This document shows, in pieces, positions 11,718 to 39,667 of a stretch of 42,633 nt of DNA (positions are counted from its first letter, which is position 1; the number at the start of each line of letters is the position of its first letter). The notes beneath the pieces are model-generated. The model had not been told where the DNA came from, did not search any database, and worked only from the letters and a program-made list of their open reading frames with translations. The position numbers and the translations under genes were made by a program. Where the stretch lies: positions 1 through 42,633 of the forward strand of contig JANYDO010000090.1 in assembly GCA_025363605.1 (NCBI GenBank), in the 5' to 3' direction. Source of the stretch: Candidatus Kapaibacterium sp. GTDB lineage: Bacteria; Bacteroidota; Ignavibacteria; Kapaibacteriales; UBA4661.

Positions 11718-13238
11718 ATGTACGCCTTCGATCTTCTCCAAAAGCGCACCGAGCTTTCGCCGGACACCGTCGCCCTTGTGGATACGGCAACAGCGCGTGA
11801 ATATACCTACCCGCAAGTGAATGAGCGTTCAAGCCGCTTGGCGGAATTTCTCACTCGTGAATTGCGCCTGAGCAAAGGCGACCGCGTGGCGGTGCTCTGC
11901 CAAAACTGTACGGAATGTATCGAAATTCTCTACGCCTCAGCCAAAGCGGGCTTGGTGATGGTTCCGCTTAACTGGCGGCTTTCGGTGGCGGAATCGCAAT
12001 CTATTCTTGACGATTGCACCCCAAACGCACTTTTTTATGATGATTATTGCTTGAACGCCGCACAGCATCTTACGGTGCAAGATAAGCACTTTATTGGTTT
12101 TCGCTCACCCGAACTTCCCGACGGACATTTTGACTACGAACAAGCACTGGCAAGCGCTTCTGGGCAGATTGTGGTAATGCCGGAGCGTGATTTTTCGGAA
12201 TTGTGGTATTTGCTTTATACCTCCGGCACGACCGGCAAACCCAAAGGCGTATTGCAAACCTACGGCACAACCGTTGTCAACGCGCTCAATATCGGCTTTG
12301 CGACCGATTTGACTTCGCGCGACACAACGCTTAATCTCTTACCGCAATTTCACGCGGGCGGACTGAACCTCTTCACCAATCCCACACTCCATGCGGGCGG
12401 CACGGCGATGATTCAGCGTTCATTCGAGCCGTCGGAAACATTCCGTTTGCTGGCAGAGCGGGCAACGATGTTCTTCGGTGTTCCGGCGGTCTATTTGTTT
12501 TTGAGCCAGCATCCCGATTTTGAGAAGACCGAATTTGCCCAAATGCGCTCGTGGAGCTGTGGTGGAGCGCCAATGCCCGTACCGCTTTTGGAAATGTATG
12601 CCTCGCGGGGCATCGTGATTCGGCAGGGAATGGGTATGACCGAAACAGGTCCCACATGCTTTCTGATTGATGAAAAAAATGCTGTTACAAAAATTGGCTC
12701 GGTCGGAAAACCGCAACTCTACGTGCAAACCCGCATCGTTGATGCCGACGGCATAGATGTGAAGCGAGGCGAAGCGGGCGAACTGATGATGCGCGGTCCC
12801 GGCATTACGCCCGGCTACTGGAATATGCCCGAAGCCACCAAAGCCGCCTTCACGAGTGACGGCTGGCTGCGCTCCGGCGATATTGCCCGCGAGGACGAGG
12901 ACGGCTACTACTACATCATTGACCGCGCAAAAGATATGTACATTTCGGGCGGCGAAAACGTCTATCCGGCAGAAATAGAAAATGTGCTGTACGCTTGCCC
13001 GGATATTGCCGAAGCCGCCGTTATTGGTGTTCCTGACAAAAAATGGGGCGAAGTCGGCAAAGCAGTTGTCGTGCCTAAGCCCGGGCATACGCCGACGGAA
13101 GCAGCAATTGTCGCCTTTTGCGCCGAGCGTTTGGCAAAGTTCAAAGTGCCCAAAACAGTCATTTTTATGGAGTCACTGCCACGCAATGCGTCGGGCAAAG
13201 TTGTCAAACCTGAATTACGTGCGCTGTATGGCAAATAG
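11718..13238 (+). CDS. AMP-forming acyl-CoA ligase (FadD-like, ANL superfamily)
   Basis: This 506-residue enzyme activates a carboxylic acid with ATP to an acyl-AMP and transfers it to CoA. The length is that of short FadD13/4-coumarate-CoA-ligase-like members. The P-loop YTSGTTGKPKG is at 168-178, the GMTETG motif near 310, the hinge region WLRSGDIAREDEDGYYYI near 390, DRAKDMYISGGENVYPAEIE after that, and the catalytic lysine in PRNASGKVVK near 495. The substrate pocket cannot be read from sequence. The ORF begins just after a strong terminator. Its stop overlaps the start of the MaoC gene by 11 nt (ATGGCAAATAG), so those two are translationally coupled. Inference: it primes the imported acid for the hydratase, isomerase and reductase encoded next. 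Confidence 0.92.
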   Translation: MYAFDLLQKRTELSPDTVALVDTATAREYTYPQVNERSSRLAEFLTRELRLSKGDRVAVLCQNCTECIEILYASAKAGLVMVPLNWRLSVAESQSILDDCTPNALFYDDYCLNAAQHLTVQDKHFIGFRSPELPDGHFDYEQALASASGQIVVMPERDFSELWYLLYTSGTTGKPKGVLQTYGTTVVNALNIGFATDLTSRDTTLNLLPQFHAGGLNLFTNPTLHAGGTAMIQRSFEPSETFRLLAERATMFFGVPAVYLFLSQHPDFEKTEFAQMRSWSCGGAPMPVPLLEMYASRGIVIRQGMGMTETGPTCFLIDEKNAVTKIGSVGKPQLYVQTRIVDADGIDVKRGEAGELMMRGPGITPGYWNMPEATKAAFTSDGWLRSGDIAREDEDGYYYIIDRAKDMYISGGENVYPAEIENVLYACPDIAEAAVIGVPDKKWGEVGKAVVVPKPGHTPTEAAIVAFCAERLAKFKVPKTVIFMESLPRNASGKVVKPELRALYGK

Positions 13239-36757: not shown

Positions 36758-37759
36758 ATGAAACCTCTTATTCGTCAGATTGTACCTTTTGCCATCGGTA
36801 CGATTATTGTCATCAACGCCTTTACGCTCACCAGCTGCGGAAGCAAGCAAGAAGCCAAAGCCGCCGACGGACCGCAAGCGCAAAATCTTGCTGCCGAGAG
36901 CAATAATGCCGCACTGCGCGTTACGTCGCCCTCAAAAATTGTGGCTCTTGGGCGAATTGAGCCGGAGCAGGAAATTACCGAACTCAGCATGGATGCTAGC
37001 GGCGTTGTCAAAAAAATCTATGTCGAAGATGGCGCAAGCGTCAAATCGGGGCAAGCACTTTTAGAGCTTGCACATGATGTGGAAAGTGCAAAACTCGCAC
37101 TATCTGAGGCAAAGTCAAACACCCAGACACAAGAAGTGAAGGGGCTTCGCGCTCAACTTGCTTCTGCAACTATCAAGCTCCAAAACCAAAAAGAGAAGTC
37201 CGAGCGTATCCAGAAAATCTTTGAAAGCGGCGCGGAAACCCGCCAAAATGCTGACAACGCAAAAGCTGACTTCGAGACCGCGCAGCGCGAAGTAGAGCGC
37301 TTGCAAGCCAGTTTGCAATCGGCAGAAAGCAAGGTCGGGGAGTTCAATGCCGATGCCCGCGTTTCGGCAGCAGAAGTGGAGCGCCGGACGCTGCGTGCGC
37401 CTTCGGACGGCACGGTTTTGAAATTAGCTCCTAACGTCGGAAGTGCTGTTACGAGCGGCAAATCGGTTGGTGATTTTGCCACAAAAGGCGCAACGACGGT
37501 ACTTTGCGAAGTAGATGAATTATTTGTGAACGATGTCCAAGTGGGTCAAAAGGCGCTTATTCGTCGTCAAGGTATGTCGGATACGATTGCGAGTGGTTCG
37601 GTCGTGAGCGTGGGTGCGTATCTCAAGAAAAAATCGCTCTTTTCCGACGAAGCCGGAGCGCTCGAAGACCGCCGCGTACGCGAGGTGCGTGTTCGCTTGG
37701 ACGACGCACGAAACGTCCTGCTTAATAGCCGCGTGGAATGTGTGATTCAGGTGAAATAA
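36758..37759 (+). CDS. Lipoprotein membrane-fusion adaptor (HlyD/MacA/DevB type)
   Basis: This is a 333-residue periplasmic adaptor. The signal ends in LTSC (C27), so it is anchored by lipid rather than by a transmembrane helix. It has a split lipoyl-like domain (KIVALGRIEPEQEITELSMDASGVVKKIYVEDGASVKSGQALLEL). A helical hairpin at about 105-205 (LRAQLASATIKLQNQKEKSERIQKIFES, ETAQREVERLQASLQSAESKVGEF) contains the RxxxLxxxxxxS-like region used by adaptors to meet TolC. The second lipoyl half and a beta-barrel domain follow (RRTLRAPSDGTVLKL, VGQKALIRRQG). It links the ABC pump in the inner membrane to the TolC-like channel. Its natural neighbour, the permease gene, lies beyond the inserted cassette. 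Confidence 0.9.
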   Translation: MKPLIRQIVPFAIGTIIVINAFTLTSCGSKQEAKAADGPQAQNLAAESNNAALRVTSPSKIVALGRIEPEQEITELSMDASGVVKKIYVEDGASVKSGQALLELAHDVESAKLALSEAKSNTQTQEVKGLRAQLASATIKLQNQKEKSERIQKIFESGAETRQNADNAKADFETAQREVERLQASLQSAESKVGEFNADARVSAAEVERRTLRAPSDGTVLKLAPNVGSAVTSGKSVGDFATKGATTVLCEVDELFVNDVQVGQKALIRRQGMSDTIASGSVVSVGAYLKKKSLFSDEAGALEDRRVREVRVRLDDARNVLLNSRVECVIQVK

Positions 37760-37769
37760 TTCTAGTGTT

Positions 37770-37813
37770 TTCTAGGTGGTAGTACGCGGATTATCGGGAT
37801 TTATCAGGATTTT
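37770..37813. repeat. Left terminal inverted repeat of the cassette
   Basis: It begins TTCTAGGTGG, then ACGCGGATT from 37784, then GGATT and TCAGGATTTT ending at 37813. It starts 10 nt after the adaptor stop codon. Confidence 0.7.
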
Positions 37814-37849
37814 AGGAATGTTTATCTGAAAAGTATTTTATTAGTGAAT

Positions 37850-38329
37850 ATGAGTAAAAATGAGATTGAATTTAGCCAAAACACGAAGGCAAAACTTCAG
37901 CACAAAGACCTGACAGAGCGTATTATTAGGGCATACTATAACGTCTATAACGACCTTGGGTATGGATTCCTTGAAAAGTGCTATGAGCGGGCGATGCTCA
38001 TTGAGCTGGAAAGTCTTGGTATGTCCGCTCAAGCGCAAGTTCCGCTAAAAGTCTATTACAAAGGCAATAGCATTGGAGATTTTTATGCGGACATCGTTGT
38101 CGCAAATACCATTATTGTTGAGTTAAAAAGCGTAATGGAAATTGCTAAAGAGCATGTTTCGCAACTATTGAATTATCTTCGCTCAACGGAAATTGAGGTT
38201 GGCTTGCTCATGAATTTTGGAGTAGAACCCAAAGTGTACCGACGTGCATTTGCAAATGAGTACAAAAAAAGTATCCACACACAAATTCTGCATACAGCCA
38301 CCCAAAAGCCTACAACGACCGATCAATAA
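37850..38329 (+). CDS. GxxExxY protein (PD-(D/E)XK nuclease-like, PDDEXK_3)
   Basis: This is a 159-residue protein from the ATG at 37850; a GTG at 37844 is an alternative start. It has the family-naming motif GFLEKCY at 39-45, in the context YNDLGYGFLEKCYERAMLIEL. The conserved core YYKGNSIGDFYADIVVANTI and IVELKSV supplies D81, E91 and K93, the D-(E)xK set of the PD-(D/E)XK nuclease fold. HVSQLLNYLRSTEIEVGLLMNFG completes the domain. The family's biological role is not established; nuclease activity is a fold-based inference. Its gene is the only one between the terminal repeats. It has no functional connection with the surrounding efflux genes and probably arrived by insertion. Confidence 0.88.
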   Translation: MSKNEIEFSQNTKAKLQHKDLTERIIRAYYNVYNDLGYGFLEKCYERAMLIELESLGMSAQAQVPLKVYYKGNSIGDFYADIVVANTIIVELKSVMEIAKEHVSQLLNYLRSTEIEVGLLMNFGVEPKVYRRAFANEYKKSIHTQILHTATQKPTTTDQ

Positions 38330-38374
38330 CCCTGAAGTTATGCTTGTGCAGAAATTCAATGAATCATGGAACTT

Positions 38375-38399
38375 CGGATTATCAGGATATATCAGGATT
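38375..38399. repeat. Internal direct copy of the cassette end
   Basis: This is CGGATTATCAGGAT followed by ATATCAGGATT, differing from 37787-37811 at 2 of 25 positions, in the same orientation. With the inverted right end at 38461 it forms a small inverted pair, like a REPIN, beside the gene's 3' end. Confidence 0.7.
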
Positions 38400-38460
38400 G
38401 TTGCTGCAAAGCACGCATTTGTCTCTGTCGTAGAGAAAAAATGGTATTCTGAGAATCTTG

Positions 38461-38506
38461 AAAATCCTGACCAATCCTCAAAATCCGCGTTCTGCCCCAC
38501 ATAGAA
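38461..38506. repeat. Right terminal inverted repeat of the cassette
   Basis: It reads AAAATCCTGACC, AATCCT, AAATCCGCGT and then CCCCACATAGAA, the reverse complement of the left end with six core mismatches. It ends 39 nt before the permease start. Confidence 0.7.
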
Positions 38507-38545
38507 TTACAAAAGAAATAAAAACTACAAACACAAGGAAATATC

Positions 38546-39667
38546 ATGTTCGCAAACGCATTTCGATTTCTTATTTACGACAAACCCAAGTCCATTGGCG
38601 CACTTTTCGGCATTGTCATTTCAGTCTTTCTTATCGGTCAGCAGACGGGTATTTTTCTGTTCCTCACGGGCTTAATGTCCGGCTTGGTGGACGGCTCTCC
38701 GGCGGGATTGTGGGTGGTCAATAGCAAAACCAATAATGCGAACTCACTAGGACTAATTGATGCCCGCCTTCAACGCCAGATAGAATCTATTCCCGGCGTG
38801 GCAAGAGTCTATCCGATTGTCTTGGCTGGCGGCGTGGCGAAATTTCCCAATGGCGAGTCCAGCCCTGTAACGATGGTCGGTACGCAATATCCCGCTTTTC
38901 GTGGCGGTCCGTGGAAACTGGTGAAAGGCAACAAAGAAGACTTGCTCCAAGAAGGGGCGGTGACGTGCGACGAGTTCGACAAAAAATCGCTCGGCGGCGC
39001 TACGCTCGGCACACAGTTTGAAATCTCCGGCAAAAAAGCCTTTATTGCCGCACAAACACGCGGCGCACGGGGTTTTGGCGGATTGTATATGTTCACAACG
39101 ATTGAGCGAGCGCGGTCTATCGGCAAAGTGTCGCCGAACAGCGTCAGCGCATTACTTGTGGACTTGGAGCCGAATGCCGATACACTCGTCGTTCGAGACC
39201 GCATTAACGCTACGATTTTTGGCGTGAAGGCGTGGAAAACAAAAGATTTATCGCGGGCAACCGTTACGTTTATTTTGGGTTCGAGCGGTATCGCCATTTC
39301 GACCGGAACGCTGATTGTTTTTGCCATTATTTCCGGCTTGGTCATTATCGGTCTCACGCTCTATTCGGCGACCATTGACCGCATACGCGATTACGCCACT
39401 CTCAAAGCGATTGGCTCCACCAACGGCTTCATCACAAGGCTCATTCTACTGCAATGTCTCATTCTCGCTTTTGCGGGCTATGTGCTCAGTTCGATTTTGC
39501 TGGAGGGCTTTAAGTTTGGTATCAGCCAAGGCGGTGTTCTTTTTGAATACACTCCGCTTATTCGTATTGGCTTCTTTGTCGTAACTCTGGTTATTTGCGT
39601 CTTCGGGGCGGTTTTTGCTATCAGGCGCATCACCAAACTTGAGCCGGCGACGGTCTTTAGAGGTTAG
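38546..39667 (+). CDS. FtsX-type ABC permease, DevC/HrtB-like
   Basis: This is a 373-residue inner-membrane permease. AAGGAA lies 5 nt before the ATG. The topology is the MacB/FtsX plan with four helices: one near residues 18-45 (IGALFGIVISVFLIGQQTGIF), a periplasmic domain of about 220 residues, then three helices in the FtsX domain (GTLIVFAIISGLVIIGLTLYS, LILLQCLILAFAGYVLSSIL, IRIGFFVVTLVICVFGAVFAI). The coupling segment IRDYATLKAIGSTNGFI between helices 2 and 3 and the ending KLEPATVFRG are typical. A short stand-alone permease like this is closer to DevC and HrtB than to fused MacB. It should dimerise with the ATPase at 35421 and work with the adaptor and the TolC-like protein. Confidence 0.92.
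   Translation: MFANAFRFLIYDKPKSIGALFGIVISVFLIGQQTGIFLFLTGLMSGLVDGSPAGLWVVNSKTNNANSLGLIDARLQRQIESIPGVARVYPIVLAGGVAKFPNGESSPVTMVGTQYPAFRGGPWKLVKGNKEDLLQEGAVTCDEFDKKSLGGATLGTQFEISGKKAFIAAQTRGARGFGGLYMFTTIERARSIGKVSPNSVSALLVDLEPNADTLVVRDRINATIFGVKAWKTKDLSRATVTFILGSSGIAISTGTLIVFAIISGLVIIGLTLYSATIDRIRDYATLKAIGSTNGFITRLILLQCLILAFAGYVLSSILLEGFKFGISQGGVLFEYTPLIRIGFFVVTLVICVFGAVFAIRRITKLEPATVFRG

Follow-up and report, generated by a model that had tools for sequence, protein, structure and literature searches.

GxxExxY nuclease genes and their matched inverted unit arrays as a probable minimal mobile unit

Genes of the GxxExxY family were found to lie, in most of the loci surveyed, between terminal inverted repeats (TIR) built from short direct units, and we consider it somewhat probable that gene and ends form a minimal selfish, probably mobile unit, i.e., a nuclease gene together with its own inverted ends. 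The co-occurrence of gene and ends extends across phyla, and the period of the units is particular to the protein family. The unit was analysed in detail in the window, i.e., the whole stretch of 42,633 nucleotides that is contig C52 of the 5.3-Mb draft genome (G000) of a Candidatus Kapaibacterium sp. At this locus, an ABC ATPase gene lies upstream of an HlyD-type adaptor and FtsX-type permease pair, between which the cassette is situated. The features of the locus are as follows:

36758–37759, + strand: HlyD-type efflux adaptor, the stop codon of which forms the left side of the insertion point
37778–37813, + strand: left terminal arm, units ACGCGGATT / ATCGGGATTT / ATCAGGATTTT, of a unit type common to other GxxExxY loci
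37850–38329, + strand: GxxExxY / PDDEXK_3 gene, ATG start, 159 aa, with an in-frame GTG at 37844
38332–38500, + strand: decayed copy of a MITE derived from an insertion sequence (IS), left end CTGAAGTTATGCTTGTGCAG, aligning to the MITEs L006 and L004
38375–38399, + strand: third, internal copy of the arm core, in the same orientation as the left arm, forming the left inner arm of the MITE-like insert
38461–38496, − strand: right terminal arm, AAAATCCTGACCAATCCTCAAAATCCGCGTTCTGCC
38546–39667, + strand: FtsX-type permease, directly after the adaptor in the related genomes G005 and G033

The original prediction of a single GxxExxY gene between imperfect inverted repeats was confirmed. The window arms are 36 nt long, 81% complementary, and 647 nt apart, and their gapped alignment reached a score of 29, compared to at most 24 in 5000 Markov shuffles; the predicted length of about 45 nt agrees with the grading of the 36-nt arms into weaker complementarity. 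The GxxExxY nuclease is the sole gene inside the unit, in which no transposase gene was found, and the predicted splitting of adaptor from permease is borne out by the adjacency of the two genes in G005 and G033. The internal third copy is 92% identical over 25 nt in direct orientation, and a 24-mer of it (up to 3 mismatches) matched in the window only at the third copy itself and at the left arm (chance expectation 0.00). It was thus present as predicted, but it belongs to the decayed IS-derived MITE within the cassette. Since the right part of this MITE remnant (38332–38500) is the source of the right arm, the cassette is a composite of left arm, gene, and MITE remnant. Intact relatives of the MITE with outer ends ACTGAAGTTACGCTT occur elsewhere in the genome, and the parent DDE insertion sequence is a 1.17-kb element (at L023) with the same outer ends that encodes a DDE transposase. 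The proposed target duplication GAAATAA (37753–37759 and 38515–38521) was rejected because the left copy contains the adaptor stop codon, the copies do not abut the arms, and none was found across 57 related elements; at each boundary tested there, the rate of direct repeats did not leave the range given by shuffled pairs.

The window protein matched only PF13366 (E-value 9.5e-40; 136 bits, cut-off 22 bits) and TIGR04256 (E-value 3.1e-38; 130.7 bits, cut-off 35 bits). Over 72 family proteins, D81, E91, Q105, and Y109 were invariant and K93 was conserved in at least 90%; the GxxExxY motif itself was also conserved, and the motif order D81, E91-x-K93, Q105xxxY109 is that of a Cas4/RecB-type (QxxxY) nuclease. 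The predicted model (pLDDT 86) resembles Cas4 SSO0001 (E-value 1.1e-4), LHK-Exo, the Holliday-junction resolvase Hjc, and lambda exonuclease, and Cas4b models were matched by 28 of the 72 family members. Predicted fold and the order D, ExK, QxxxY are thus shared with Cas4, lambda-type exonucleases, and Hjc, from which the GxxExxY proteins differ in being shorter, in lacking a CRISPR, phage recombination, or resolvase setting, and in having no sequence-level relative in the PDB (profile search of the family, best E-value 0.36).

For the survey of ends, 122 GxxExxY loci were compiled (a genome-wide scan with named organisms gave 80, the phylum 30, and the family 12), 117 of which had sufficient flanking sequence. 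The 350 nt upstream of the conserved core were aligned to the reverse complement of the 350 nt downstream, and a score of at least 18 was taken as TIR-positive. This threshold was reached by 77% of the 117 loci (median score 24), and the TIR-positive loci included ten named phyla; about one quarter of the genes had no detectable TIR. The loci are not fully independent, and proteins related to that of the window are over-represented by the scan. Of the controls, 1.5% of 131 windows shifted within these loci, 0.9% of 585 Markov shuffles, 8.4% of 700 pairings of arms from two different loci, and 4.7% of 236 other open reading frames from these loci scored this high. Roughly half of the 395 phylum genomes searched encode GxxExxY proteins, in up to 11 copies. 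The proteins were nearly absent from plasmids (8 of 72,556) and absent from the phages searched (0 of 50,697), and hence do not represent a typical travelling element; an assignment as plasmid or phage gene was discarded on these counts.

The arms are arrays of three to five direct units with the consensus ACRCNGAT, or CACAGAG in many Bacteroidia, and the array is preceded by a conserved outer stretch near ATAGA. Autocorrelation of GxxExxY arms peaked at 9–10 nt (z 17.6 and 13.6), i.e., about one helical turn. The description of the ends as REP-like therefore holds as an analogy, but not for their build, which is that of 9–10 nt direct-unit arrays and not of palindromes. The left and right arms of an element share 81% identity, much more than arms taken from different loci do. 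Mismatches between arms carried no G-U bias (167 vs 158), hence no RNA-level pairing constraint was detected, and such a constraint was dropped as an explanation of the arms. Genes for S23 four-helix-bundle proteins (PF05635) are likewise bounded by inverted arms of short direct units, with a TIR score of at least 18 in 57% of 30 loci and 88% of 17 further loci, compared to 0 of 90 shifted windows. Within the same phylum set, however, S23 units repeat every 7 nt (peaks at 7, 14, and 21) instead of the 9–10 nt of GxxExxY. The spacing of the units thus varies with the protein, an argument for recognition of its own ends by each protein and against one carrier enzyme for both.

The unit pair ACRCNGATNACRCNGAT was matched 846 times in the 395 phylum genomes, compared to nine matches for the reversed pattern. 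Genomes with a GxxExxY gene held on average 4.17 unit pairs and those without 0.34, a 12-fold difference, and the presence of at least three matches was associated with presence of the gene (Fisher p 4.5e-18). Family f33 alone accounted for 105 matches in 30 genomes with the gene and two matches in ten genomes without, and two genomes (G011 and G187) had many unit pairs and no detected GxxExxY gene. The unit-pair copy number partly reflects hitch-hiking, given the gene-free copies inside MITEs of insertion sequences in G000, G002, and G104. About ten core-like places were found in the window genome, most of them away from the GxxExxY gene, a distribution that the original prediction had named as speaking against a joint unit. 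It does apply to the window genome, but the gene-free copies there lie largely within MITEs of an ordinary DDE insertion sequence with ends ACTGAAGTTACGCTT, and the copy-number test is therefore confounded and not decisive. For the same reason, gene-free copy number was dropped as proof of GxxExxY mobility. In all three genomes examined closely (G000, G002, and G104), most gene-free copies were inside MITEs with ordinary IS-type ends, and the hairpin-carrying MITEs had three unrelated outer ends, ACTGAAGTTACGCTT, GTAACTGGTCAGGTC, and GAGACCTCTGAAAAAT; either GxxExxY-type hairpins prefer to enter MITEs, or MITEs capture the hairpins repeatedly. A GxxExxY-type hairpin forms the core of the MITEs L003–L006 in G000, L195, L196, L202, and L208 in G002, and L298, L308, and L309 in G104. 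Separately, a dispersed hairpin of about 80 nt (TAGTGGCACAGACATTCTTGTCTGTG), unrelated to the cassette, recurred in each of the five genus genomes sampled, irrespective of GxxExxY, at L196, L204, L215, and many other loci of the genus.

The gene-free hairpins bear on the best-surviving alternative, according to which the arms are substrates of another enzyme (a DDE transposase, RAYT/Y1, or a reverse transcriptase) and the GxxExxY gene rides along as cargo. We regard this as unlikely, even though hairpins of the GxxExxY unit type do sit within MITEs with three different outer ends and Y1_Tnp domains are found in most genomes of the genus. Gene-bearing cassettes are generally without such outer ends and without target duplication, and the unit type follows the protein family (GxxExxY 9–10 nt, S23 7 nt), not the genome. 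Moreover, G005 has a Y1 match but no such hairpins in 310 kb, and G008 has three Y1 matches but no GxxExxY. As the distribution of Y1_Tnp in the genus does not follow that of the hairpins, RAYT was largely, if not completely, set aside as carrier. The cassette does resemble RAYT/REPtron and REPIN systems (PMC3116915, PMC8266576) in having one enzyme gene between inverted ends, doublets without the gene at other places in the genome, ends whose sequence varies from lineage to lineage, and doublets that are enriched where the enzyme is present, the last in part through the IS MITEs. It differs from them in its enzyme, a Cas4/Hjc-like PD-(D/E)XK protein instead of a Y1/HUH enzyme, and in its ends, as REP sequences are GTAG-tagged palindromes with a conserved tetranucleotide foot. 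With MITEs of DDE insertion sequences, the cassette has short inverted-repeat units and dispersed gene-free copies in common, but the gene-bearing form shows neither target duplication nor IS ends, and IS MITEs appear to have captured its arm sequences.

In relatives, the site between adaptor and permease is filled by a GxxExxY gene in the window genome and in three congeneric species (G002, G004, and G007). The arm sequences at this same site differ (GTACGCGGATTATCGGGATTTATCAGG in G000, GGGACGCAGATGAAGATGATTGGATGG in G002, TTTTTGACACTGATTTGACTGATGG in G004, TTTTGACACAGATTGTCATGATTC in G007), and in each of the four elements the left and right arms still match each other; the match between the arms is thus retained within an element even though the elements at one site have come to differ in unit sequence. 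Clean empty sites exist, with adaptor and permease adjacent and no gene between them, in G005 and in G033, a genome of the same taxonomic order. The permease tree groups G005 with G002 and G004 (support 96/94), inside the carriers, which implies either a clean loss in G005 or more than one entry. At a second site, between epimerase and glycosyltransferase genes, the element is present in G000 and G007 and the site is empty in G009. In the protein tree, the four same-site proteins and L021, a copy located elsewhere in G004, form a supported clade (95/86), which implies that the gene changed place at least once; a clade of the four same-site proteins alone was not rejected (AU p 0.42), nor was it demonstrated. 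GxxExxY genes occupy several unrelated positions among members of the genus, and their tree mixes phyla and does not follow the organisms. Between near-identical genomes, no excision or insertion event was seen. A setting that resembles that of the window occurs in G003 (contig C543; L016/L053), where the GxxExxY gene, with arms CCACGAATCGCACGAATTGACACGAATC, immediately follows an FtsX-like permease gene and precedes another membrane protein gene.

A static reading would take the protein as a domesticated chromosomal nuclease and the arms as a control device, i.e., a cleavage site or hairpin regulating the operon or gene copy, with apparent movement reflecting loss plus horizontal transfer via homologous recombination. 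The same site in four congeners, the near absence from plasmids and phages, and the end-to-end closure of the cassette transcript when folded whole (z −4.75) fit this reading, but the several unrelated sites in the genus, the empty sites, the mixing of phyla in the gene tree, and the empty site of G005 in spite of its permease branching inside the carriers render it improbable. A defence or restriction-like role, in which the nuclease would guard against DNA with unit arrays, can draw on weak matches in PADLOC, to Cas4 and to candidate systems, and is very improbable, as the gene is itself bounded by the arms, the genomes that encode it are also those enriched in unit arrays, and no defence neighbourhood was seen at the window site.

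For the selfish, probably mobile unit, the claim that repeats and nuclease-like protein belong together thus holds far beyond the window, and we infer its mobile part from empty sites, unrelated positions in the genus, and a tree that ignores the organisms, which support it well, if indirectly. The nuclease would bind its own ends via the array of units of about 9–10 nt with a GAT or GAG core, and would cut them as double strand or as hairpin/cruciform, as suggested by its nearest folds (Cas4, lambda-type exonucleases, and Hjc). Host recombination or repair might then complete excision and insertion. The units would settle between operon genes, where pairing of the transcript ends may limit harm; that the end-to-end folding makes insertions between operon genes tolerable is a conjecture. 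No paper giving GxxExxY a role or a link to repeats was found in the open-access literature and the few subscription papers and preprints covered. A very common family with no settled role hence looks like the enzyme of a small mobile element that has gone unrecognised, and its usual bounding by recognisable ends gives this nameless family an obvious biochemical test, namely cutting of the arms.

A wider reading, which we put forward tentatively and hold to be doubtful as yet, is that GxxExxY cassettes are a new class of transposable element (stand-alone Cas4/Hjc-like nuclease, helically phased 9–10 nt ends, no target duplication), joined with S23 elements (7–8 nt) in a superclass whose small proteins would each recognise a spacing of their own, the unit sequence being free to change if the arms match. 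Such a grouping would place the long-known 23S rRNA intervening sequences (IVS) in the same architectural class. In Coxiella, the 23S rRNA IVS consists of an S23p open reading frame between terminal inverted repeats, with three tandem heptamers upstream, and was termed a selfish element (PMC4990558). Like the cassette, the IVS holds one small open reading frame between terminal inverted repeats, but it encodes an S23 four-helix bundle and has 7-nt units instead of a PF13366 protein and 9–10 nt units, and elements of the IVS type are by definition inserted in rRNA and excised from the transcript by RNase III, whereas the window unit lies in a protein operon. No S23 gene (PF05635) was found in the window genome.

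The spread of heptamer arrays in cyanobacteria and Bacteroidetes was published with the remark that "no mechanism is evident" (PMC4679880), and the S23 parallel offers a carrier for these arrays. Among S23 genes fetched from cyanobacterial plasmids, seven of eight scored at least 21, most with obvious 7-nt arrays beside the gene, and S23 elements are a candidate source of the cyanobacterial heptamer repeats (STRR) and of TAACTGA-type arrays; a Ca. Parabeggiatoa genome, searched to test the TAACTGA link, yielded no S23 gene. The S23 loci (L165–L194, L315–L331, and L341–L348) have 7-nt, in some cases 8-nt, units, with nearly every locus having its own unit. On a Pseudanabaena and an Anabaena plasmid (L341 and L347), a CRISPR operon contains an S23 element between its cas6 and cas4 genes, the position being similar on the two plasmids, and the neighbour at L347 is annotated as type I-D cas1d. 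In G007 (contig C20; L254), the 7-nt unit TTGGTTACTTGGTTCTTGG, which is of the S23 type, makes up an inverted array of 579 nt at positions 11737–12315.
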